Source of the DNA: Armatimonadota bacterium
GTDB taxonomy: Bacteria; Armatimonadota; Zipacnadia; UBA1398; JAKPQA01
DNA length: 64,000 nucleotides
NCBI GenBank assembly: GCA_029547025.1
Contig: JAKPQA010000359.1
Span: forward strand, 1 to 64,000
Direction: 5' to 3'
Part shown: positions 1,165-12,141 of the stretch, piece by piece
Layout: each line of letters opens with the position of its first letter
How positions within the stretch are numbered: the stretch's first letter is position 1
Position numbers and translations under genes: made by a program
Notes under the pieces: model-generated
What the model was told of the DNA's origin: nothing
Seen by the model: only the letters and a program-made list of their open reading frames with translations
Database searches by the model: none

Positions 1165-2301
1165 CTACACCTGCCCATCCAACCGCCGGAAAGCCTCATC
1201 GATCTCGTCCTCGGTGTTGTAGGCGTGCGGCGAGAAGCGGATGCCCCCGCCCCGAGCCGCACACAGCACCCCGCCGGACACCAGCGACTCCACCAACGCT
1301 CCCGAGTCGTGGCCGGGCACGCGAAAGATCACAATGCCCGAACGCTCCTCCAGCCGCTCCATCGGTGACAGCAGCTCAAAACCCCGGCGACGCACCTGCT
1401 CGGCGACATGGTGCGTCAGCTCGAGAACCCGGGCGTACACCCAGTCGCGCCCCCAACTCGCGAGTAGCTCCACCGATGCCGCTAGCCCGCAGGCGCCCAG
1501 AACATTGAGCGAGCCCTCCTCAAAGCGCCGGGCATCCGGTCGAGGAGTGGCGTCGTAGTGCTCGAAGTCATATGCATCCCGAACGCTGTTCCATCCCATA
1601 TAGGTCGGCGCCAACTGGTCCAGGATCTCCGGCCTGCAGTACAGGTACCCGATGCCCTCGGGCCCCAACAGCCACTTGTGTCCGTCAGCCGCACCGACAT
1701 CAAAAGGGGTCTCCGACACATCCATGGGCACGGCACCGACACACTGGATCATGTCCACCACGAAGTAGGCGCCGCGCGCGCGACACAAGTCGCCGATGGC
1801 ACCGAGATCCGCCCGGAACCCGGAGCCGAACTGAACGGCGCTCAGGGCCACGGCCCGTGTGCGAGAGTCCATCACCGACGCGACCAAGCCGGGCGGTATG
1901 CGCCGGTCAGGCTCCGGACGAACTAGCCGTGTCTCTACCCCCCGGCGCGCCAGCGCCAGCCACGGATACACGTTGGCCGGAAACTCGCCATGGAACACGA
2001 CCACGTTGTCACCCTCGCCTAGCGGAAGGCTGTTCGCGGCCAAGAGCAAGCCCTGCGATGTGTTCTTCACGTACGCAATGTCACCGGGTGCCGCGCCGAT
2101 CATCCGGGCGAACAGCACCCGGCCCCGGTCGACGAGCCGGCCCCAGCGTTTGCGATTCAGCCACCCGTTGCGAGCCATGTCGGCCGCGGCCGCGGCAACG
2201 ACTTCGGCCGCCGGCCCGCTCAAGGGCGCTACACCCGCGTGGTCGAGGTAGATGCGCTCCTGGCAGGCGGGCATGTCGGCTCGGGCTCTCGCGACGTCCA
2301 T
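1165..2301 (-). CDS. Class V aminotransferase (PLP-dependent, NifS/epimerase-like)
   Basis: This fold-type I PLP enzyme begins IYLDHAGVAPL, has the cofactor Asp in FVVDMIQCVGAVP, and has the Schiff-base lysine in ADGHKWLLGPEG roughly 200 residues in. About 378 residues is normal for class V enzymes of the cysteine desulfurase / isopenicillin N epimerase / kynureninase-like type. I chose the ATG at 2301 because AGAGGTGAG lies just upstream; an in-frame GTG at 2319 would place that site inside the gene. No catalytic Cys loop typical of IscS is evident, so true cysteine desulfurase activity is doubtful. It forms a two-gene operon with the MBL hydrolase 3 bp downstream. Confidence 0.82.
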   Translation of the reverse strand: MDVARARADMPACQERIYLDHAGVAPLSGPAAEVVAAAAADMARNGWLNRKRWGRLVDRGRVLFARMIGAAPGDIAYVKNTSQGLLLAANSLPLGEGDNVVVFHGEFPANVYPWLALARRGVETRLVRPEPDRRIPPGLVASVMDSRTRAVALSAVQFGSGFRADLGAIGDLCRARGAYFVVDMIQCVGAVPMDVSETPFDVGAADGHKWLLGPEGIGYLYCRPEILDQLAPTYMGWNSVRDAYDFEHYDATPRPDARRFEEGSLNVLGACGLAASVELLASWGRDWVYARVLELTHHVAEQVRRRGFELLSPMERLEERSGIVIFRVPGHDSGALVESLVSGGVLCAARGGGIRFSPHAYNTEDEIDEAFRRLDGQV

Positions 2302-2483
2302 GCTCTCACCTCTCGGCACGGCGATGGGTGCGGGATCGCATTCTCCTCCCGGTAGGTCGGGTCGTCAACGGCCGCAGGACATCCGGGCGGCCGCCACGAG
2401 GGGCCTCCGCAGTAAGGTTGTTTGGTATGCTTGCGGGACCAATGGATGACTCAGACGCGATGGCCGAGAAGGAGGATGGTCGC

Positions 2484-4271
2484 GTGATCGTGCCGTGGCT
2501 GGCGGGGCTGGGCGTATTCGTGGCGATTCTCACTGCGAGCCAGGCAGCGGAGGTCGATCATGAGGGCCGCCCGTTCGTTACCCAGCCGGCAGCCGATCTG
2601 CGGTTTGAGAGGCGCACGGAACCACGGCCCCACGGCATCGACTACCCCTTCGCTGAGCAGACGGCTCGCGGCGTGGCCCTCTTCTCGCGCTTTCCAGCCT
2701 TCACCCTGAGCGACCGGCGCATCCATGTGTCAGGCCCCTGGTACTCGGATCCCGCGGCGAACCTTCACTTCTCCCGAGGTATCACCAGCGTCGAGGCGAT
2801 GCCGAACTTCCGGCTCGAGGGTGCACCCAACAGCGTGCGGGCGATCCCGGCCCCGCACAAGTGGCAGCTAATGTGCGATCCGCTGTTCTGGGACTATGCG
2901 GCCCGGCTCGCCGACGAGATGGAGGCCGCCGATCCGACCGATAGCCGCATCGCCCCACTTCGGACATTTGCCGTCGATCACCAGTTCACTCCTCACGAGA
3001 TGGCCTTCGTCGCGCTGGGCCGCCGCGTATGGCTCGGTGAGCGCGGACCTACGGATGAGCATCTCGAGGGGGTGCTCTACCCGTGCATCGATATCGAGCA
3101 GACCGGCGGGTGGGAGCACCAGCGCGACTGCTTTGGCTGGCTATACCGCGGCATGGCCGAAGCCGCGGCAGAGAACGGATGCCGCATCGTGCCCATCACC
3201 TATGGCCAATGGACCTACTCCGTGGGTGCCGTGTGGGAATCGATGCGGCAGGGCGGGACCGGCGATCCCGAGTACCTCCTGCCCGAGAGAGACTTCCTGG
3301 CCCAGCCGGACCCCACGCTGACCATCTGCGAGCAGCTGGGCGGCGTCATTTCCATGGATGGCTACATGCAGGCGATCTGGGGCAATGAGCCCTTCTACCA
3401 GCGCCAGGCCGACGGGTCGTTACTGCTCGTGGACGGCCAGCCGGTCTTCAGCGAGGCCACCCAGACCACGGCTTACGGCCAGCCGATTCCCCTCGAGCCC
3501 GGCGAGGCCGAGCACTGCCTCCAGGATCTGTACCGGCAGGCAGTCCGATTGTACTTGATGTACCACCGACTCGCTGGTGGATACCCGGACCGGAGTGACC
3601 AACGCAAAGCCTTCCTCAGGAACGTCCGCGTGGGGGCATGGAGCCGCATCACCAATGAGGGGCTACAGGGCATCCAGCAGAACGACCGCCCACTCCCTCC
3701 GTGGCTCATCGAGACACTGGTGATGATGTACCTGTTCACGGCCGATGACATTGTCATCTGGTCATCGGACACCAATGTGCCCAGCGGCCCTCCGGGTGCC
3801 GACTACAGCCAGGCATGGAAGTACAACGCCCACGGCGTAATCGAATACGTGGTCAAAGCGGCGCACCGGTACAGCGCGCTGGATCCCCTACACCAGGGAC
3901 CGTTCCGCTGGTGCTGGTTTCGGCTGCCGATGGTCAACAAGAACCAGACCGATGGGGATCGGTACTTCGAGAAGCCCCTGGTGTTCGCCAAGCTCCGGGC
4001 TTTCGAGGGCCAGCCCTGGATCGAGCTGTTCGCCGCCTGGCCGGCGCTCGACGGGCAGCCCGCAACGCTGACGGTCTGGGCAGAGAAGGACGGGGCACGC
4101 ACGCCCGAGTACCGCGTCGAGCTAGCCAACGGGCGCAGCTCGTTCCTGGATGCCTGGCAGCTCCCCGACGGCTTCGAGAGCGTCGAAGGACGCGACGTGT
4201 TCGTGCGCTTCACCGATCCACTGGGCCGTGCACATACCTGGTGCGGCGACTGGCGAGAGACGGCGGACTAG
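2484..4271 (+). CDS. Secreted protein of unknown function, glycosidase-like context
   Basis: This is a roughly 595-residue exported protein. The frame is open far upstream, but the start is best placed at the GTG at 2484: AAGGAGG lies 8 nt before it and the product then begins with a clean signal peptide (IVPWLAGLGVFVAILTASQAA). The mature part is rich in Trp, Tyr and acidic residues. A segment with YPCIDIEQTGGWEHQ and later DDIVIWSSDTN looks like strands of a TIM-barrel hydrolase, and the C-terminal 100 residues look like a beta-sandwich. I do not recognise a named family. Its 3' end overlaps the convergent glycosidase gene by 62 bp. A role in polysaccharide breakdown is inferred from neighbours only. 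Confidence 0.65.
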   Translation: MIVPWLAGLGVFVAILTASQAAEVDHEGRPFVTQPAADLRFERRTEPRPHGIDYPFAEQTARGVALFSRFPAFTLSDRRIHVSGPWYSDPAANLHFSRGITSVEAMPNFRLEGAPNSVRAIPAPHKWQLMCDPLFWDYAARLADEMEAADPTDSRIAPLRTFAVDHQFTPHEMAFVALGRRVWLGERGPTDEHLEGVLYPCIDIEQTGGWEHQRDCFGWLYRGMAEAAAENGCRIVPITYGQWTYSVGAVWESMRQGGTGDPEYLLPERDFLAQPDPTLTICEQLGGVISMDGYMQAIWGNEPFYQRQADGSLLLVDGQPVFSEATQTTAYGQPIPLEPGEAEHCLQDLYRQAVRLYLMYHRLAGGYPDRSDQRKAFLRNVRVGAWSRITNEGLQGIQQNDRPLPPWLIETLVMMYLFTADDIVIWSSDTNVPSGPPGADYSQAWKYNAHGVIEYVVKAAHRYSALDPLHQGPFRWCWFRLPMVNKNQTDGDRYFEKPLVFAKLRAFEGQPWIELFAAWPALDGQPATLTVWAEKDGARTPEYRVELANGRSSFLDAWQLPDGFESVEGRDVFVRFTDPLGRAHTWCGDWRETAD

Positions 4272-6222
4272 CGGCAGGACCAACGAACACGGCCATCACT
4301 CGGTCGACCTGCTGGTCCTGGCCCTTGCACTGGAGGTAGAGGTCGCCGGCATCGACATGGGCGATGGCGGCCGTGCGCGGCTCCGGCCAGCTCTGGCCGG
4401 ACAGCAGGGGCGTCCAGGTGGCGCCATCTTGGGACCAACTCACGCTCCACGGCCGGCCGTTGTGAGCGCCCACCGTAATGGTCAAGTCGACCCGCCCGGG
4501 CCGGGCCACGGGAAGCTTGTAGACCCACTCACTGCCGAACCGGCGCGACTCGCTGAGCCCGCAGCTGGCGCCCGGCTGCACGTACAGGCTCCGCTCGAGG
4601 TGGCTGTTCGCGAGGAACTCGACCACCGGCCCCGCAGCCACGCGGATCGGTGTGGCGTAGGCCGCCAGGTCGATGCCGCCCACCCGGCCCGAGACGCGCA
4701 GTTCGCTCATCCCCTCGGGGCTGCCCTCGGGGACCGACAGGGCCACCCACTGACGGTCCAGGCTCATCGAGGGCACATCCACGTGCGCCCAGAAGGCCTG
4801 CCCGCCCAGCTCGAGGACGACTTCGCCTGAGGCTGCCTGGTCGGTCCCGTTGAAGACCCGCAGATCGACCTCGCGCGGCTCCCCCGGCACCAGCCAGACG
4901 TGCTCGGTGCCGGGAGGCGGATGGACGGAAGCCCAGATCAGCGGACGAGTGCCCGGGTCGGGCTTCGATGCCGAGAACTCCCGCGGCTCCGGCCGCTGGG
5001 CCAGGGTCGCCGCCGAAGCGGGGACGTCGATGTAGACCGGGTCGGGCAGGGCCGTCAGGGCCAGGCCGTCGGTTGAGCCGACCTGGCGGGCCTCGCCGAG
5101 CAGGTCCCGGGCCTCGAAGGGCCCGCCGGCGATGGGCAGGGACACGTCGACGGCGTCAGTGCCAGGGGCCCAGGCGACGAGCAGAATCGTCTCCTGCCCC
5201 TCCCTCGGGCCGAACAGGTAGGCCCGGGCATCGCCGGCCTCGACCCGCCCCAGGCACTCGCGGCCGCGCACCTCTATGATCATATGCTTATATGACCAGA
5301 ACGCTCTCTTCTTCTTACCATCATCGCCATACAACCCATATCCTGGACCGCCCCAGTCCTTCACACAGAACCAGAACGCGCGTTCGGCACCCAGGTGCCC
5401 GAGCCCGAGGGCGGTCACATAGCACTGGACCAGCAGACGGGCCTGGACGTCCTCGGTGACCCCCGCATCACCCGTCGACCAGCCCAGCTCGTTGAGCCAA
5501 ATGGGCTTGCTCCGGTCGCCCCACCGATCGAGCGCATCGCGGATGGACGAGACCTTGGTGGTGAACCATCCGTCGTTGAACGTGGTCCCCCACTGGTATG
5601 GGTGCATGGCCATGATGTCGAAGTAGGGCCCCACGCCCTGCTCGTAGCAGCGCTCGAGGAATGGCACATCGGCCCCGGCCAGGCCGCCGAAGAGGACGCG
5701 CGCCTCTGGGTCGCCGCGGAGGACGCCGACTGCCATGGCCTTCTGCAGGTCGGCGAACTCGGCGATGGTGCCGGCGAAGAACTCGATGTTAGGCTCGTTC
5801 CAGCACTCCCAGGTGGCGATGCGGCCGGCGAAGCGCCGGCTGATGGCTTCGGCGAACCGGGCGAAGTCGGCCAGGTCGCTCGGGGGATAGCTGGCCTCGG
5901 ACTTGGGTCCCGTCGACGCCCAAGCGGGCGTGTAGCCGAGGATGGGGGCGAAGATCAGCCCCTCGTCCTGCCAGGCCCTGAACTCATCGTCGGCCGGCCC
6001 CCAGTCGTACTTCCCCCGCTCGGGTTCAAGCACGGGCCAGTTGCCGAGCTGCGTGGCCCCGGCGCCACAGCGGATCCACGGCGCACCGATCGCCCCCACG
6101 TCCGGCCACGGGCACACGATGCCGAAGGGGGAGTCGGCGCCCTCGCCGATCGGGGCGGCCGGGGCGGGCAGGCAGAGCAGGGCCGCCAGAGCGGCCAGTT
6201 CGAGTGTACGCCGCATGGTCAT
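4210..6222 (-). CDS. Secreted clan GH-A glycoside hydrolase (GH39/GH5-like)
   Basis: This 670-residue protein has a signal peptide at residues 1-22 (LELAALAALLCLPAPAAP). A TIM barrel follows, with the two clan GH-A glutamates: the acid/base in ECWNEPN (E143) and the likely nucleophile in IWLNELGWST (E245). A beta-rich C-terminal half (from about residue 330) resembles the accessory domains of GH39 and related enzymes. It therefore likely cleaves a retaining beta-glycosidic bond outside the cell; the sugar is unknown. An AAGGGG site lies a few bases before two possible ATG starts (6222 and 6216). The next gene downstream on the opposite strand ends inside this gene. Confidence 0.8.
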   Translation of the reverse strand: MTMRRTLELAALAALLCLPAPAAPIGEGADSPFGIVCPWPDVGAIGAPWIRCGAGATQLGNWPVLEPERGKYDWGPADDEFRAWQDEGLIFAPILGYTPAWASTGPKSEASYPPSDLADFARFAEAISRRFAGRIATWECWNEPNIEFFAGTIAEFADLQKAMAVGVLRGDPEARVLFGGLAGADVPFLERCYEQGVGPYFDIMAMHPYQWGTTFNDGWFTTKVSSIRDALDRWGDRSKPIWLNELGWSTGDAGVTEDVQARLLVQCYVTALGLGHLGAERAFWFCVKDWGGPGYGLYGDDGKKKRAFWSYKHMIIEVRGRECLGRVEAGDARAYLFGPREGQETILLVAWAPGTDAVDVSLPIAGGPFEARDLLGEARQVGSTDGLALTALPDPVYIDVPASAATLAQRPEPREFSASKPDPGTRPLIWASVHPPPGTEHVWLVPGEPREVDLRVFNGTDQAASGEVVLELGGQAFWAHVDVPSMSLDRQWVALSVPEGSPEGMSELRVSGRVGGIDLAAYATPIRVAAGPVVEFLANSHLERSLYVQPGASCGLSESRRFGSEWVYKLPVARPGRVDLTITVGAHNGRPWSVSWSQDGATWTPLLSGQSWPEPRTAAIAHVDAGDLYLQCKGQDQQVDRVMAVFVGPAASPPSLASRRTRYVHGPVDR

Positions 6223-6314
6223 CGCCCCTTGTCGGCCTGACGGCCGACCTGGGCCGGATAGGGTCCCACCAGGCTTCGCCTGGTCCTCCCTATGCGGCCC
6301 CTCCTCAACACCGT

Positions 6315-8270
6315 CTACCCGCCGTTGACGAGGAAGTCGGTGATCCGCGCCGCGGTGCCCTTGCTGCCCGGGTTGCGGGTTTCAGCCGTCCGCAGAGTCA
6401 ACTCGTGCGGGCCGTCGGGCAGGTCAGAGGCCAGCATGGTGGTCCAGTTCAGGTGGAGGCCGCTGCTCCACGGCGTGAACAGATCGTGCTGGACCCATGG
6501 TCCGCCGTCGATGCTCGACTCGACAATGCCCGCATCGGGCCCGGCGGCGACGAACATCCCCACGGCTGTGCCGGAGAAGGAGAGCTTCAGCGTGGCCCCC
6601 GGTGCCTCGGCGATCAGCACTGGCACATCGGCGATGCGCGTATCGGCGCCATCGGTCGGCCGCCAGGCCGGGTCGATGTGCCAGCCATCGACCAACTCGG
6701 CCTGGTCGATGCCGACCAGCCTGCCGCGCAAGTAGCTGTTCGGATCCAGCGGCTCGGCGGGGAGCGGGTACGCCGTGGTCGCGGCACCATCGGCCATCGG
6801 CTGGGGCCATGCGGCATCGAACAGCCGGCAAATGGAGCGGAAGTAGACCCCATGGCCGAATGGGCTCGGGTGGAGGTCGACGAAGTCTTTCTCCCAGGAG
6901 AACTCGCCCGCATGGATCCGCTCGGCCACCTCGCGGGCCAGGTTGATCGACGGGACCGCATAGTGCTCGGCGACGCGCTCGTGGCTGACGATGACCTCGG
7001 GCGTCCGGCCGGCGAGGGTCTCAGCCACCTTGCCGGGGTCGGCGAAGTGCAGCAGCACGATATCCATCTCCGGGTTGGCGAGCCTCGCCTGGCGGACGAT
7101 GCCCTCCATCCCACGCACCTGCTCGACCGGTGGGAAGGCGTTCGTGTCGTCGTTGACGGCGGCTTCGGCGAACAGGAGATCGACCGTACCGTTCTTGAGC
7201 ACATCGCGGGCGAAGCGGAAGGCATCCGGCGTCGACCCGTAGGACGGAATGCCCGCGTTGATGAAGTCGAACTCCGTCTGTGGGAACCGCCGCTGGAGCT
7301 CCTCACACACCATGTCGCGCCAGCCGCCGCCAGCGGTGATCGATCCGCCCAGGAAGGCCACGCGGCCACGCTTCTCCGTGACGAACCGGATGCGGCAGTT
7401 GCCCAGGCCGCTCCGGAGAACGAAGTAGTCATAGCCGTAGGGGGTCTGCGGCTCGCGGATGGGCACATCGGGCAAACCGGGCACGTGCGCGAGGATGAAG
7501 TTCACGATTCGCGTGGGATCCTGCAGACTGTGCGGGTGGTGGTCGCAGTTGGGCTTCGAGATCACCAAGATCTCGCCGCCGAGCTCCCGGTACCGCGCCT
7601 CGACGATCCGCGTGTTCTCCTCGATGGGCACTCCCGTGTCGACCTCGCCGCAGACGTGTAGCAACGGGATCTTGGCGGCGGCCAGCGGCGCCAGGTTGTC
7701 GATGGGGTTGCCCGTGTAGGCCAAGGCATCCTCTTCGGTGAGGCCATAGACATCCAGCAGCCGCTGCCAGTCCTCGGTGTGCTCCTGCGCTCTGCCCTTG
7801 CCGGCAGGCCAGCTCTTGAAGTCGCACACGGGGGCGTCATTGTAGATGCAGGCCACGCGGTCGGGGTGGCGCGCCGCCCAGTTGAACGAGAAGAGCCCGC
7901 CGCGGCTGAATCCCTCGAGCACCGCCTTCGGCGACAGACCCCACGGCCCGGTGAGATGGTCGTAGAAGGCATCCATATGGTCCAGGGCCACCGGGGCGCC
8001 ATACATGTTCTGCACATCCATGTAGGCGACGTGGAAGCCGTGCTCGAGCAGGGCGAGGTCGGCCTGGGGCTCGTGGCCGAAGAACTCCATCCGCCAGATC
8101 CAGGGCTTGCCCTCGGCAGCGCGCTTGGGGAGGACGAGGAGACAGTCACGGCCGTTGATGACGAAGTCGAGCCGCTCATAACCGAACCAGTCGGACCGCG
8201 GCTCCTCTGGGGCGGCGAATGCGCCCGCGCATGTGCACCCGATTGTAATACTCACCATCAGCCCACGCAT
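6315..8270 (-). CDS. Secreted alpha/beta-hydrolase fused to SGNH/GDSL esterase
   Basis: This 651-residue protein has a weak signal peptide (MRGLMVSITIGCTCAGAFAA) and two complete hydrolase modules. Residues ~25-265 form an alpha/beta-hydrolase with nucleophile elbow GFSRGG (S122), Asp in GEVDTGVP (D211) and His in CDHHPHS (H244/H245). Residues ~280-490 form an SGNH hydrolase with block I AFLGGSITAG (S310), block II NAGIP, block III VND and block V DLHPSPFGH (D465, H467). A beta-sandwich follows to the end. Such modules commonly remove acetyl or feruloyl groups from plant-type polysaccharides, which would fit the glycosidase next door. Two active sites in one chain is the notable point. Confidence 0.82.
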   Translation of the reverse strand: MRGLMVSITIGCTCAGAFAAPEEPRSDWFGYERLDFVINGRDCLLVLPKRAAEGKPWIWRMEFFGHEPQADLALLEHGFHVAYMDVQNMYGAPVALDHMDAFYDHLTGPWGLSPKAVLEGFSRGGLFSFNWAARHPDRVACIYNDAPVCDFKSWPAGKGRAQEHTEDWQRLLDVYGLTEEDALAYTGNPIDNLAPLAAAKIPLLHVCGEVDTGVPIEENTRIVEARYRELGGEILVISKPNCDHHPHSLQDPTRIVNFILAHVPGLPDVPIREPQTPYGYDYFVLRSGLGNCRIRFVTEKRGRVAFLGGSITAGGGWRDMVCEELQRRFPQTEFDFINAGIPSYGSTPDAFRFARDVLKNGTVDLLFAEAAVNDDTNAFPPVEQVRGMEGIVRQARLANPEMDIVLLHFADPGKVAETLAGRTPEVIVSHERVAEHYAVPSINLAREVAERIHAGEFSWEKDFVDLHPSPFGHGVYFRSICRLFDAAWPQPMADGAATTAYPLPAEPLDPNSYLRGRLVGIDQAELVDGWHIDPAWRPTDGADTRIADVPVLIAEAPGATLKLSFSGTAVGMFVAAGPDAGIVESSIDGGPWVQHDLFTPWSSGLHLNWTTMLASDLPDGPHELTLRTAETRNPGSKGTAARITDFLVNGG

Positions 8271-8635: not shown

Positions 8636-10966
8636 ATGATTCGGCTTGCGGGTGTGCTCCTGTTGGCGAGCAGCGCCTACGGCGCTGAGTTCCACGTGGC
8701 GACGGACGGGAACGACGCCAACCCCGGCACGAAAGCGGAACCGTTTCGGACCATTCAGCGCGCGGCCGATCTGGCCCGGCCGGGCGACATCGTCACGGTG
8801 CACGAGGGAGTCTACCGGGAGCGGGTGAACCCGCCGCGGGGCGGCGAGTCCGAGGCCAAGCGCATCGTCTACCGCGCCGCCCCCGGCGAGAGAGTCGAGA
8901 TCCGGGGCTCGGAGGTCATCAGGGGCTGGGTACGCGAGCGGGGCGACGTCTGGAAGGTCACACTATCGAACGCCTTCTTCGGCGGCTTCAACCCTTACGC
9001 CGACGTGATCCACGGCGACTGGTTCGACCCTCAGGGGCGTGAGCACCACACGGGCGCCGTGTACCTGGATGGCGACTGGCTTACCGAGGCGGCGAGTCTC
9101 GACGAAGTGATGATGCCCGGCGGAACGAAACCCGCGTGGCTGACGGCCGCGAGCCGGCAGACGCTTCTGAACGTCGCCTGGCTGCGTCCGGGTGGAGCGG
9201 GCAAGGGCGAGCGCACTCCGGCGGCCGGCTTCACGGCACAGCGGGGGATTCAGACCGCGCCGTGCACCGAGGGGGGAGAGTGCATCGGCTGGATTGAGGA
9301 AGGTGACTGGGCGCGCTACGAGGGGATCGAGCTGGGGCAGCGGACCGAGGCGATGGAGCTCCGCGTGGCGTCGGCGACGTCGGGGGGCCTCATCGAGATC
9401 CGTCTGGGCACGCCGGAGGGCGAACTGCTGGGCATGGTGGATGTTCCCACCACCGGCGACTGGCAGCGATGGATCTCTGTGGTCGCCCCGATGAAGCCGC
9501 TGGGCGGCAAGCGGGACCTGTGCCTCACGTTCCGGGCACGGGGTACCGAGGAGGAGCGCCTGGCGGCGCGTCGCCTGAACCGGCAGCTGTGGTTCGCGAG
9601 AGTCGACGCCGCACACACCACCATTTGGGCGCAGTTTGAGGGCGTGGACCCCAACCAGAGACTGGTCGAGATCAATGTGCGCCAGTCGGTGTTCTACCCG
9701 GACCAGCCGGGGCGCGACTACATCACGGTGCGCGGGTTCATCATGCGGCACGCGGCCACGCCCTGGGCTCCGCCGACGGCCCAGCAGATCGGCCTGATCG
9801 GCACCCACTGGAGCAAGGGGTGGATCATCGAAGACAACGTCGTCAGCCACTCGGTCTGTGTCGGCATCGCGCTGGGCAAGCACGGCGACCCGTACGACAA
9901 CACATCGGCCAACAGCGCCGAGGGCTATGTGAAAACCATCGAGCGAGCTCACGCATTTGCCATCCCGTGGACGAAGGCGCGCATCGGCCACCACGTGGTG
10001 CGCCGCAACACGATCTCGCACTGCGAGCAGGCCGGTGTCGTCGGCAGCCTCGGTGCCGCGTTCAGCACCATCGAGGGGAACGTCATCCACGACATCCATC
10101 TGCGCCACCTGTTCGGGGGCGCCGAGATGGCCGGCATCAAGATCCACGGCGCCATTGACACGGTGATCCGGCGCAACCACGTCTACCGCACGTGCCTGGG
10201 GCTCTGGCTGGACTGGATGGCCCAGGGGACACGGGTGTCGGCCAACCTGTTCCATGACAACACGGGGCAGGATCTGTTCGTCGAGGTCAACCACGGGCCA
10301 TTCATCGTCGACAACAACCTGTTCCTGTCGTCCACCAGCCTGCTCGACATGTCGGAGGGTGGGGCCTATGCCCACAACCTGTTCGCGGGACGGATCACGA
10401 ACTGCCCTGAACCGAACCGTGAGACGCCTTACCACCGTGCGCACAGCACGCGGCTGGCCGGGCTCGCCCGGATCACGGGCGGCGATGATCGCTTCTACAA
10501 CAACATGTTCATCGGCGACGGGAAGGCGCTCACCGGGGCGGAGAAGGGCGACGTGGAGGAGGTGCGCTGGATCAGCGGCCATGGGCTCTGGGGCTACGAT
10601 GGCCGGCCGTTCCCGCTCGAGGCGGCCGGCAACGTGTACTACCACGGCGCCGAGCCCTACGCGGGTGAGGCGGATCCGGTCGTCCTGCTCCAACACGACC
10701 CGCAGCTGGACCTGGAGGTAGACGAGGATGGTGGGGCCCATCTGAGCCTGAGGCTGACGGGTCTGCCGGGTGGCACGGGTCCGGCCATCGTGACGACGGC
10801 GCTGCTCGGGAAGACCCGAGTCGCCGGCCTCCCGTATGAGAACCGCGACCGGTCGCCCCTGGAGATCGACACCGACTACCTCGGTCACCGTCGCAGCCGT
10901 TCGCGGTCGGTCGCCGGTCCGTTCGCGTCTCTTCGCGGCGGCTCGGTGCGACTACGGGTGTGGTGA
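8636..10966 (+). CDS. Secreted right-handed beta-helix protein with inserted CBM6-like segment
   Basis: This ~776-residue protein has a short signal peptide (MIRLAGVLLLASSAYG) that ends just before EFHVATDGNDANPGT. That sequence opens a DUF1565/pectate-lyase-like beta-helix, continuing PFRTIQRAADLARPGDIV. Residues ~220-310 contain a beta-sandwich-like insert (EGDWARYEGIELGQ...) that resembles a family 6 carbohydrate-binding module. Helix coils then resume with repeated short rungs such as IIEDNVVSHS, VVRRNTISHCEQAGV, TIEGNVIHDIH and VIRRNHVYRT. It probably binds or cleaves polysaccharide outside the cell. The ATG at 8636 was chosen over longer in-frame options because it gives the signal peptide; an AGGG lies about 5 nt upstream. 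Confidence 0.78.
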   Translation: MIRLAGVLLLASSAYGAEFHVATDGNDANPGTKAEPFRTIQRAADLARPGDIVTVHEGVYRERVNPPRGGESEAKRIVYRAAPGERVEIRGSEVIRGWVRERGDVWKVTLSNAFFGGFNPYADVIHGDWFDPQGREHHTGAVYLDGDWLTEAASLDEVMMPGGTKPAWLTAASRQTLLNVAWLRPGGAGKGERTPAAGFTAQRGIQTAPCTEGGECIGWIEEGDWARYEGIELGQRTEAMELRVASATSGGLIEIRLGTPEGELLGMVDVPTTGDWQRWISVVAPMKPLGGKRDLCLTFRARGTEEERLAARRLNRQLWFARVDAAHTTIWAQFEGVDPNQRLVEINVRQSVFYPDQPGRDYITVRGFIMRHAATPWAPPTAQQIGLIGTHWSKGWIIEDNVVSHSVCVGIALGKHGDPYDNTSANSAEGYVKTIERAHAFAIPWTKARIGHHVVRRNTISHCEQAGVVGSLGAAFSTIEGNVIHDIHLRHLFGGAEMAGIKIHGAIDTVIRRNHVYRTCLGLWLDWMAQGTRVSANLFHDNTGQDLFVEVNHGPFIVDNNLFLSSTSLLDMSEGGAYAHNLFAGRITNCPEPNRETPYHRAHSTRLAGLARITGGDDRFYNNMFIGDGKALTGAEKGDVEEVRWISGHGLWGYDGRPFPLEAAGNVYYHGAEPYAGEADPVVLLQHDPQLDLEVDEDGGAHLSLRLTGLPGGTGPAIVTTALLGKTRVAGLPYENRDRSPLEIDTDYLGHRRSRSRSVAGPFASLRGGSVRLRVW

Positions 10967-11010
10967 GTAGCGGGGCTCCGTGCTCAGCCCTGGGCCGCCC
11001 CCGGCTACTC
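10965..11010. terminator. Bidirectional terminator-like hairpin between convergent genes
   Basis: GAGTAGCGGGG (10965-10975) pairs with CCCCG-G-CTACTC (10999-11010), an 11-bp stem with one bulged G. It covers the stop codons of both converging genes. No T run follows, so termination would have to rely on the stem itself or on Rho. Confidence 0.5.
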
Positions 11011-12072
11011 CAACGGCCTGCCCAGGGCTTCCTCATAGATGGCGACGACGTTCTCGACGGGGGTGTCGGGCTGGATGCAGTGGGCGGGTGAGAAGATGTA
11101 GCCACCGCCCTTGGCGATGACGCGGAGCCGGTGCCGAGCCTCCTCACGGCACTGCTCGACCGTGCCGTGGGGAAGTGTCTCTTGCGTGGAGATCATCCCG
11201 CAGTAGGCCAAGCGGTCGCCGAACTCGCGTTTGAGCTCCTCGGGGTCCATGCCGGCCGGCTCGGGCTGGACGGCATCGAGCAGGTCGAGGCCCATTTCGA
11301 TGAGTCTCGGCTGGAGCGCCCGGGTGGAGCCGCAGGAGTGCATGGCCGCCCTGGCGCCGTAGTGGTGGGCCAGGTCGATGAACCGCTGGAGGCGCGGGCG
11401 GAAGAAGGCATCGAAGGTGGCCGGGCTGATGACCGGGCCGTTCTGGGTGCCGAGATCCTCGCCGAGCCAGAGGATGTCGATCTCGCCGCGTCCGGCTTCG
11501 AGGGTCCGCTTGAGTACCTCATAGTAGAAGTCGACGCGATGGTCGATGATGGCGCAGCCGACCTCGTCCTGCAGTGCGATATCACACAGGACCTGTTCCA
11601 TGCCTCTCCCACGCGAGACCCCGTTGATGATGTCTGGTGCTCCGGCATGGCCGGCGTGGACACAGAAGGGCCGCTCCCGGGCGATGGCATCGGGGATGGC
11701 GGAGTAGTCGTAGTCGTCTGGGTTGGGCCACGGGTAGCGCTCGACCTCGTCCATCGTCTGGAGCCGCGCCAGGGTGAGGTCGGAGGCCTCGTGGTAGACC
11801 CCGCCGGTGGCGTTGGCCACGGCGGAGTAGCCGATGCCCCACTCATCGTAGAGCTCGGCCTTGCCGGTGGCGATGGGCGGAGGCTTCCGTGCGGGACCGA
11901 CGTAGGGCGCGGCGATACCGCGGATGTCGACTTCAAACACCTCGATGGGCGAGCGGCCGGCGAACCGTTCGACGAGGGACCCGTGCATCTCGGGCGTCAG
12001 GTAGATCTGAATGGGGACCCGGTCGGTCTCTCTGTGGTCGATGGCCTGTAGTACGCGTTCGCGCGGGGTCAT
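11005..12072 (-). CDS. Uroporphyrinogen decarboxylase (URO-D) family protein, MtaA/MtbA-like
   Basis: This 355-residue protein starts MTPRERVLQAIDHRETDRVPI, the usual opening of URO-D family members that are not HemE. It has the zinc/thiol-ligand motif H-x-C in AMHSCGS and a C-terminal Cys in SPAHCIQPDTP, as in cobamide:coenzyme M methyltransferases (MtaA/MtbA). Whether it transfers methyl groups or acts on sugar-derived substrates is unknown; many environmental genomes carry such genes in glycan loci. The ATG at 12072 has AAGGGTG 9 nt upstream; a longer frame to 12123 is less likely. It lies 69 bp after the spermidine-synthase-like gene on the same strand. Confidence 0.8.
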   Translation of the reverse strand: MTPRERVLQAIDHRETDRVPIQIYLTPEMHGSLVERFAGRSPIEVFEVDIRGIAAPYVGPARKPPPIATGKAELYDEWGIGYSAVANATGGVYHEASDLTLARLQTMDEVERYPWPNPDDYDYSAIPDAIARERPFCVHAGHAGAPDIINGVSRGRGMEQVLCDIALQDEVGCAIIDHRVDFYYEVLKRTLEAGRGEIDILWLGEDLGTQNGPVISPATFDAFFRPRLQRFIDLAHHYGARAAMHSCGSTRALQPRLIEMGLDLLDAVQPEPAGMDPEELKREFGDRLAYCGMISTQETLPHGTVEQCREEARHRLRVIAKGGGYIFSPAHCIQPDTPVENVVAIYEEALGRPLE

Positions 12073-12141
12073 GGTCGGCGACACCCTTCCGCGGGGTATC
12101 TGGCTCGCCCGGCGGCTGAGCACCGGACGAAGGGCGATTCG

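Follow-up and report, generated by a model that had tools for sequence, protein, structure and literature searches.

Ester groups limit the breakdown of plant polysaccharides, and natural chains that combine two different esterases are few among the characterised enzymes in the portion of the literature covered here. In two of them, BoCE6-CE1 and FjCE6-CE1, an acetyl xylan esterase is combined with a feruloyl esterase in a chain encoded among glycosidases, and tethering of the BoCE6-CE1 modules brought a benefit on corn cob and none on beechwood (PMC7110780; this and the other papers are cited for the excerpts available). The CE6 fold is of the SGNH type (PMC12313940). CE20 enzymes (XacXaeA, Fl8CE20_II) have a DxH spacing in Block V, tolerate Asn at the acid position and are active, with water bridging the acid and the His, at about 2.9 Å in Fl8CE20_II (PMC12313940). 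RiCE17 of Roseburia intestinalis (family CE17, PDB 6HFZ/6HH9), a mannan acetylesterase with 2-O-acetyl mannan as its substrate, has the triad Ser41-His193-Asp190 of the DxxH type and a CBM35 clamp that includes Trp326 (PMC13276840). FjoAcXE-like acetyl xylan esterases likewise pair their SGNH domain with a beta domain, by which the active site is shaped (PMC9105624).

In the window, i.e. the whole stretch of 64,000 nucleotides of Armatimonadota DNA analysed here, positions 6315..8270 of the minus strand form a single open reading frame of 651 codons (651 amino acids), in which full-length homologues and an AlphaFold2 model delineate a signal-peptide-like N-terminus, an alpha/beta-hydrolase, an SGNH hydrolase and a C-terminal beta domain. 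Residues 1-20 (8211..8270) resemble a Sec signal peptide on inspection, by which the protein is predicted to be secreted. The alpha/beta-hydrolase module covers residues 21-265 (7476..8210; Pfam, conservation and structure superposition), and the SGNH domain covers residues 281-495 (6786..7430; Pfam, profile match and structure superposition). Pfam assigns residues 113-245 to a Peptidase_S9-type alpha/beta-hydrolase (24.8 bits, cut-off 22.6) and residues 306-473 to Lipase_GDSL_2 (56.9 bits, cut-off 32.9), with no match from about residue 510 to the end. The latter region is well modelled by AlphaFold2 (residues 21-651, mean pLDDT 93.9, pTM 0.85, alignment of 57 sequences) and is a CBM35-like beta domain (residues 510-651, 6318..6743) that was missing from the description given by an earlier, sequence-only reading of this DNA. 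Relatives align across both halves, with identity of up to 71%, and the claim of that reading that one chain contains two esterase folds is borne out by Pfam, the model, the full-length relatives and the conservation of the catalytic residues.

We consider it reasonably probable that the gene encodes a carbohydrate esterase that is secreted and whose single chain has two serine active sites independent of each other; from its sequence, the protein is likely a bifunctional polysaccharide esterase. Both the N-terminal alpha/beta-hydrolase (S122-D211-H245) and the SGNH domain (S310/G340/N373/H467) would remove ester-linked acyl groups, most likely acetyl, from a plant polysaccharide, and the CBM35-like domain would clamp down on the SGNH site in the manner known from RiCE17. 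What we infer here comprises catalytic activity, the type of ester, the substrate and a benefit of tethering; the removal of two types of ester from one polymer, as suggested by the sequence-only reading, is plausible. Similarly to the CE6-CE1 enzymes, two unlike esterases share a chain that is encoded among glycosidases, but the families differ and the order by fold (alpha/beta vs. SGNH-type) is the opposite, the window protein joining a CE17-like module to an unclassified alpha/beta module. The SASA and CE1 modules of CE6-CE1 are not seen: the SGNH half matches Lipase_GDSL_2, and Esterase PF00756, which we take to be linked to CE1, scores 14.2 bits on the protein, below its cut-off of 22. 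Two-esterase chains are already known; among those in the literature covered, the combination of a CE17-like SGNH domain with its C-terminal beta domain (hereafter SGNH-C) and an unclassified alpha/beta module appears to be new, this exact fusion not being found in open-licence literature as represented by titles and the beginnings of abstracts, and no biochemically studied close relative was found in the same literature.

Residues 276-651 (256-631 of the model) superpose on RiCE17 (6HH9/6HFZ) with Z 35.1 and rmsd 3.0 over 342 residues (VIA-align 2), and because this superposition extends over both domains, the SGNH and beta domains are arranged as in RiCE17. The family profile also matches 6HFZ across both domains (E = 8.3 × 10−28), and its alignment places W601 (6468..6470; conserved in 38/38 sequences where the region is present) at the clamp residue Trp326. 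The two proteins thus share the SGNH domain with a C-terminal CBM35 domain, the GGSIT motif and the clamp Trp; they differ in sequence (~20% identity), in the alpha/beta half, which is absent from the solved RiCE17 chain, and in Block V, which is DxxH in RiCE17 and DxH in the window protein, with V464 at −3 (DxH in 39/39 members of its clade). Classification of the SGNH half within CE17 was rejected because the DxxH acid equivalent to Asp190 is absent, and we call it CE17-like. With CE20, it has in common the DxH Block V, in which the acid position is occupied by Asp or Asn, and the closeness of a beta domain to the active site, whereas the inserted ancillary domain, the GQSNM Block I and the Block III Gln of CE20 are replaced by a C-terminal domain, GGSIT and Asn373, respectively. 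The FjoAcXE-like enzymes differ in having an N-terminal beta domain, a GNSI motif and a canonical DxLHP (PMC9105624); DXH is also present in AlgX and AlgJ (PMC9487903).

The Ser, Gly, Asn and His of Blocks I, II, III and V that define the SGNH superfamily are all present: S310 (GGSIT; 7341..7343), the oxyanion residues G340 (AG; 7251..7253) and N373 (VND; 7152..7154), and H467 (6870..6872), each conserved in 39/39 clade members. The comparison comprised 64 relatives, namely, 39 DxH sequences (the window protein included), in which the Block V loop has one residue fewer between the acid and the His, and 25 sequences of DxxH length, all of which have Asp at −3. In a tree built with the motif columns left out, the 39 DxH sequences form one side of a branch (SH-aLRT 99), so that, as judged from the sequences, the DxH spacing characterises a single clade nested in a family of DxxH type. 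The catalytic set proposed by the sequence-only reading, S310/N373/D465/H467, therefore holds for three of its residues; the assignment of D465 (6876..6878) as the acid of the triad is uncertain because this residue varies (D in 30, N in 8 and S in 1 of the 39), is DxH-spaced and is accompanied by a second acid, D462 (6885..6887), five residues before H467 and present in 37/39. Position 462 is G in the two remaining proteins (L009 and L011), both of which retain D465; conversely, all nine proteins with N or S at 465 retain D462, and none of the 39 lack both acids.

The displacement of the canonical acid raises the alternative that catalysis by the SGNH half is weakened or that this half is a binding-only module, for which the uniform Asp at −3 in the 25 DxxH-length relatives, set against the DxH clade, 9/39 members of which carry N or S at the acid position, could be taken as evidence. 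We consider this quite unlikely, given the invariance of S, G, N and H (39/39), the strong purifying selection on this half, and the activity of CE20 enzymes with DxH and Asp or Asn (PMC12313940) and of CE2 enzymes with a Ser-His dyad (PMC9487903, both as excerpted). Both halves are under purifying selection: in five pairs of relatives, dN was 0.04-0.25 and dS was about 0.5 or more, often saturated. A likely non-catalytic member, judging from its sequence, does occur among the SGNH-half relatives: L084 (genome G007, contig C334) has lost the Ser (GGGIH), the Asn and the His (DGVRPG).

Assuming two functional sites, we propose that H467 is tuned by an acid that may be either D/N465, directly or via water as in CE20, or D462, which would have taken over. 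In the strictest form of the second option, D462 is the triad acid that contacts H467 directly and D465 is dispensable; this is suggested by the greater conservation of D462 (37/39 vs. 30/39) and by its retention in nine of nine N/S465 proteins, but is somewhat unlikely because L009 and L011, which have G462, retain D465 and evolve under purifying selection (dN is well below dS in this pair as well), and because no precedent for a five-residue spacing between acid and His was found in the literature covered. The switch from DxxH to DxH on a single branch could serve to test whether the water-mediated triad of CE20 evolved more than once.

Returning to the chain with two active sites, the alpha/beta half shows the features that define the alpha/beta-hydrolase superfamily, i.e. 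a GxSxG nucleophile elbow, an Asp and a His in this order: S122 (GFSRGG; 7905..7907; 38/38), D211 (7638..7640; 39/39) and H245 (7536..7538; 38/38). S122 and D211 stand as the sequence-only reading had them; of the two histidines between which it did not choose, H245 is taken as the base because it is invariant, and H244 was ruled out, being conserved in 29/38. The half superposes with Z 20-22 on S9 peptidases, S-formylglutathione hydrolases and carbohydrate esterases including 6tkx and 7dwc, a range that, at the level of the model, indicates only that the fold is common. No carbohydrate-esterase family in Pfam matched it above the curated cut-off, peptidases being nearest, and a search by sequence gave no close solved relative, the best matches being 3wyd (E = 0.0006) and 4ftw (E = 0.004). 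It can therefore be asked whether one site alone is a polysaccharide esterase. In that case, the alpha/beta half would be a hydrolase that resembles peptidases or acts on small esters, its role would be unrelated, and its fusion would be due to chance or serve secretion. The Peptidase_S9 assignment, the many S9 peptidases among the top fold matches and the occurrence of the module alone in 27 of the 51 matches listed (see below) are in line with such a role; nevertheless, we regard it as unlikely, because no second S9 domain is seen in the 651 residues (by Pfam or in the model) and because the module is joined, in both orders, to at least five SGNH-type modules as well as to GH27-like and weakly GH141-like modules, a variety of partners that points to work on glycan esters.

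A scan of genome contigs gave 42 loci, of which 11 (L033-L042 and L047) encode the alpha/beta and SGNH modules in one frame (L004 lies inside L033 and L005 inside L037, each pair being counted once). By title, these derive from Abditibacteriaceae, Kiritimatiellae, Pirellulaceae, an Actinomycetota bin, Bacteroidota, Microbulbifer and an Akkermansia bin; the assignment to Actinomycetota is questionable because the same contig is placed in the phylum of the window in another collection. The search for the same domain order elsewhere, which the sequence-only reading had recommended, thus succeeded in several phyla, and the order is present in isolates (by title), Sediminicola luteus and Cyclobacterium sp. 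Fragmentation of the genome that includes the window (369 contigs) leaves room for the notion that two genes were joined artificially into this reading frame when a metagenome bin was assembled, but this is exceedingly improbable, and a chimera was ruled out, given the same order in these isolates and in many independent bins.

In the phylum sample, the alpha/beta module was detected at E = 10−20 or better in 53/291 genomes among the matches listed. Of the 51 listed matches scoring at least 250 bits (15 weaker matches, several of them fragments, were left out), 23 are fused to SGNH-type modules, one is fused to a GH27-like/NPCBM protein and 27 are alone; these counts describe this one alpha/beta family in a single phylum sample. 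With three further SGNH types labelled here xA, xB and xC, the 23 listed fusions comprise 7 alpha/beta-SGNH-C, 8 xB-alpha/beta, 6 alpha/beta-xC, 1 xA-alpha/beta and 1 xA-alpha/beta-xC. The best solved relatives by sequence are GDSL proteins such as 9OTV for xA, 7BR2 for xB and PAF acetylhydrolase Ib for xC. The fourth other partner is a SASA-type esterase (L048, L050, L073, L082 and L100); for the SASA part of L073, comparison with solved structures gave no match at E = 0.001. By sequence assignment, then, the alpha/beta module is fused to at least four SGNH-type esterases besides SGNH-C; additional partners are a weakly GH141-like/PDZ protein (L064) and a 3-keto-disaccharide hydrolase domain (L047). 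Three esterase modules (SGNH, alpha/beta, SGNH) occur per chain in L039, L041 and L096, and in L068, SGNH-C and xA-alpha/beta are encoded by adjacent genes. Two distant alpha/beta modules (L101 and L102) lie on reading frames of 861 and 895 amino acids, the other parts of which match none of six module HMMs.

The SGNH-C and alpha/beta modules are each also found alone, and we rejected the possibility that stand-alone alpha/beta genes are partnered with nearby SGNH genes: a weak SGNH-type match was present within 4 kb in 1/27, with 0/13 in control stretches and hence no enrichment, a search that used HMMs from the SGNH types of the fusions and so can miss other types, some contigs ending inside 4 kb. 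Thus, with 27 of the 51 listed matches alone and 1 of these 27 having even a weak SGNH-type neighbour, the pairing is not obligatory. On the question of whether the fusion arose once, at least 4 changes are required on the alpha/beta tree and at least 7 on the SGNH-C tree (by a quick method, long-branch rows being unsure).

Specialists may be surprised by two features: the DxH clade, and the repeated joining of one alpha/beta module to several types of SGNH domain. As a tentative and, on balance, doubtful extension, a CE17-related lineage would have undergone a single one-residue deletion in its DxxH loop and independently reached a Ser-His-(water)-Asp/Asn relay of the CE20 type, and, in a mix-and-match fashion, one alpha/beta module would be tethered to at least five SGNH-type esterases, giving two or three sites per chain that strip neighbouring esters from one polymer. 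In this family, chains with two and with three sites can be drawn from several phyla, and single-module controls occur naturally.

As for the substrate, glycosidase-like genes indeed flank the esterase gene, as the sequence-only reading stated: they encode a divergently oriented GH120-type protein with CBM6 and a beta-helix (8636..10966, plus strand; Pfam) and, 92 bp downstream on the same strand, a weakly GH39-like protein of 670 amino acids, below Pfam cut-offs (4210..6222, minus strand). Members of GH120 are known as beta-xylosidases, and because of this neighbour, xylan is our best guess for the substrate at the window locus. The chosen neighbours at nine other loci with the same order include GH95/GH127, GH29, GH20, GH97, GH3, SASA-type or sulfatase proteins, or no glycosidase. 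No common polymer emerged from Pfam scans of selected genes, a subset of the flanking reading frames (30 neighbours at the nine fused loci and 19 next to SGNH-C genes that lack the alpha/beta half), and clustering of the flanking reading frames of the window and 11 loci gave no neighbour family common to more than 3 of the twelve. With neighbour families so heterogeneous, a conserved neighbourhood was rejected as a guide to the substrate, and the differing glycosidase families argue against a fixed single polymer.

The sole cluster present in 3/12 loci is a URO-D family, with members at 11005-12123 in the window (minus strand) and near the fused esterase in L039 (15007-15516) and L041 (4937-6040). 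A reading frame of 899 amino acids beside the glycosidase genes (1572-4271, plus strand; the true start is probably later) has no Pfam match at E = 0.01. A palindromic intergenic element (fold z −4.6) lies at 6249-6305, a short distance beyond the esterase stop codon, and its core has 44 copies in the genome at two or fewer mismatches (30 forward and 14 reverse, one of them in the window; 0 for the reversed control); the element looks REP-like. It recurs at L002 (2-793; contig C134), where it is part of a tandem repeat of 159-bp units (5 copies, 92% matches) that adjoins a DxxH paralogue of the SGNH half.
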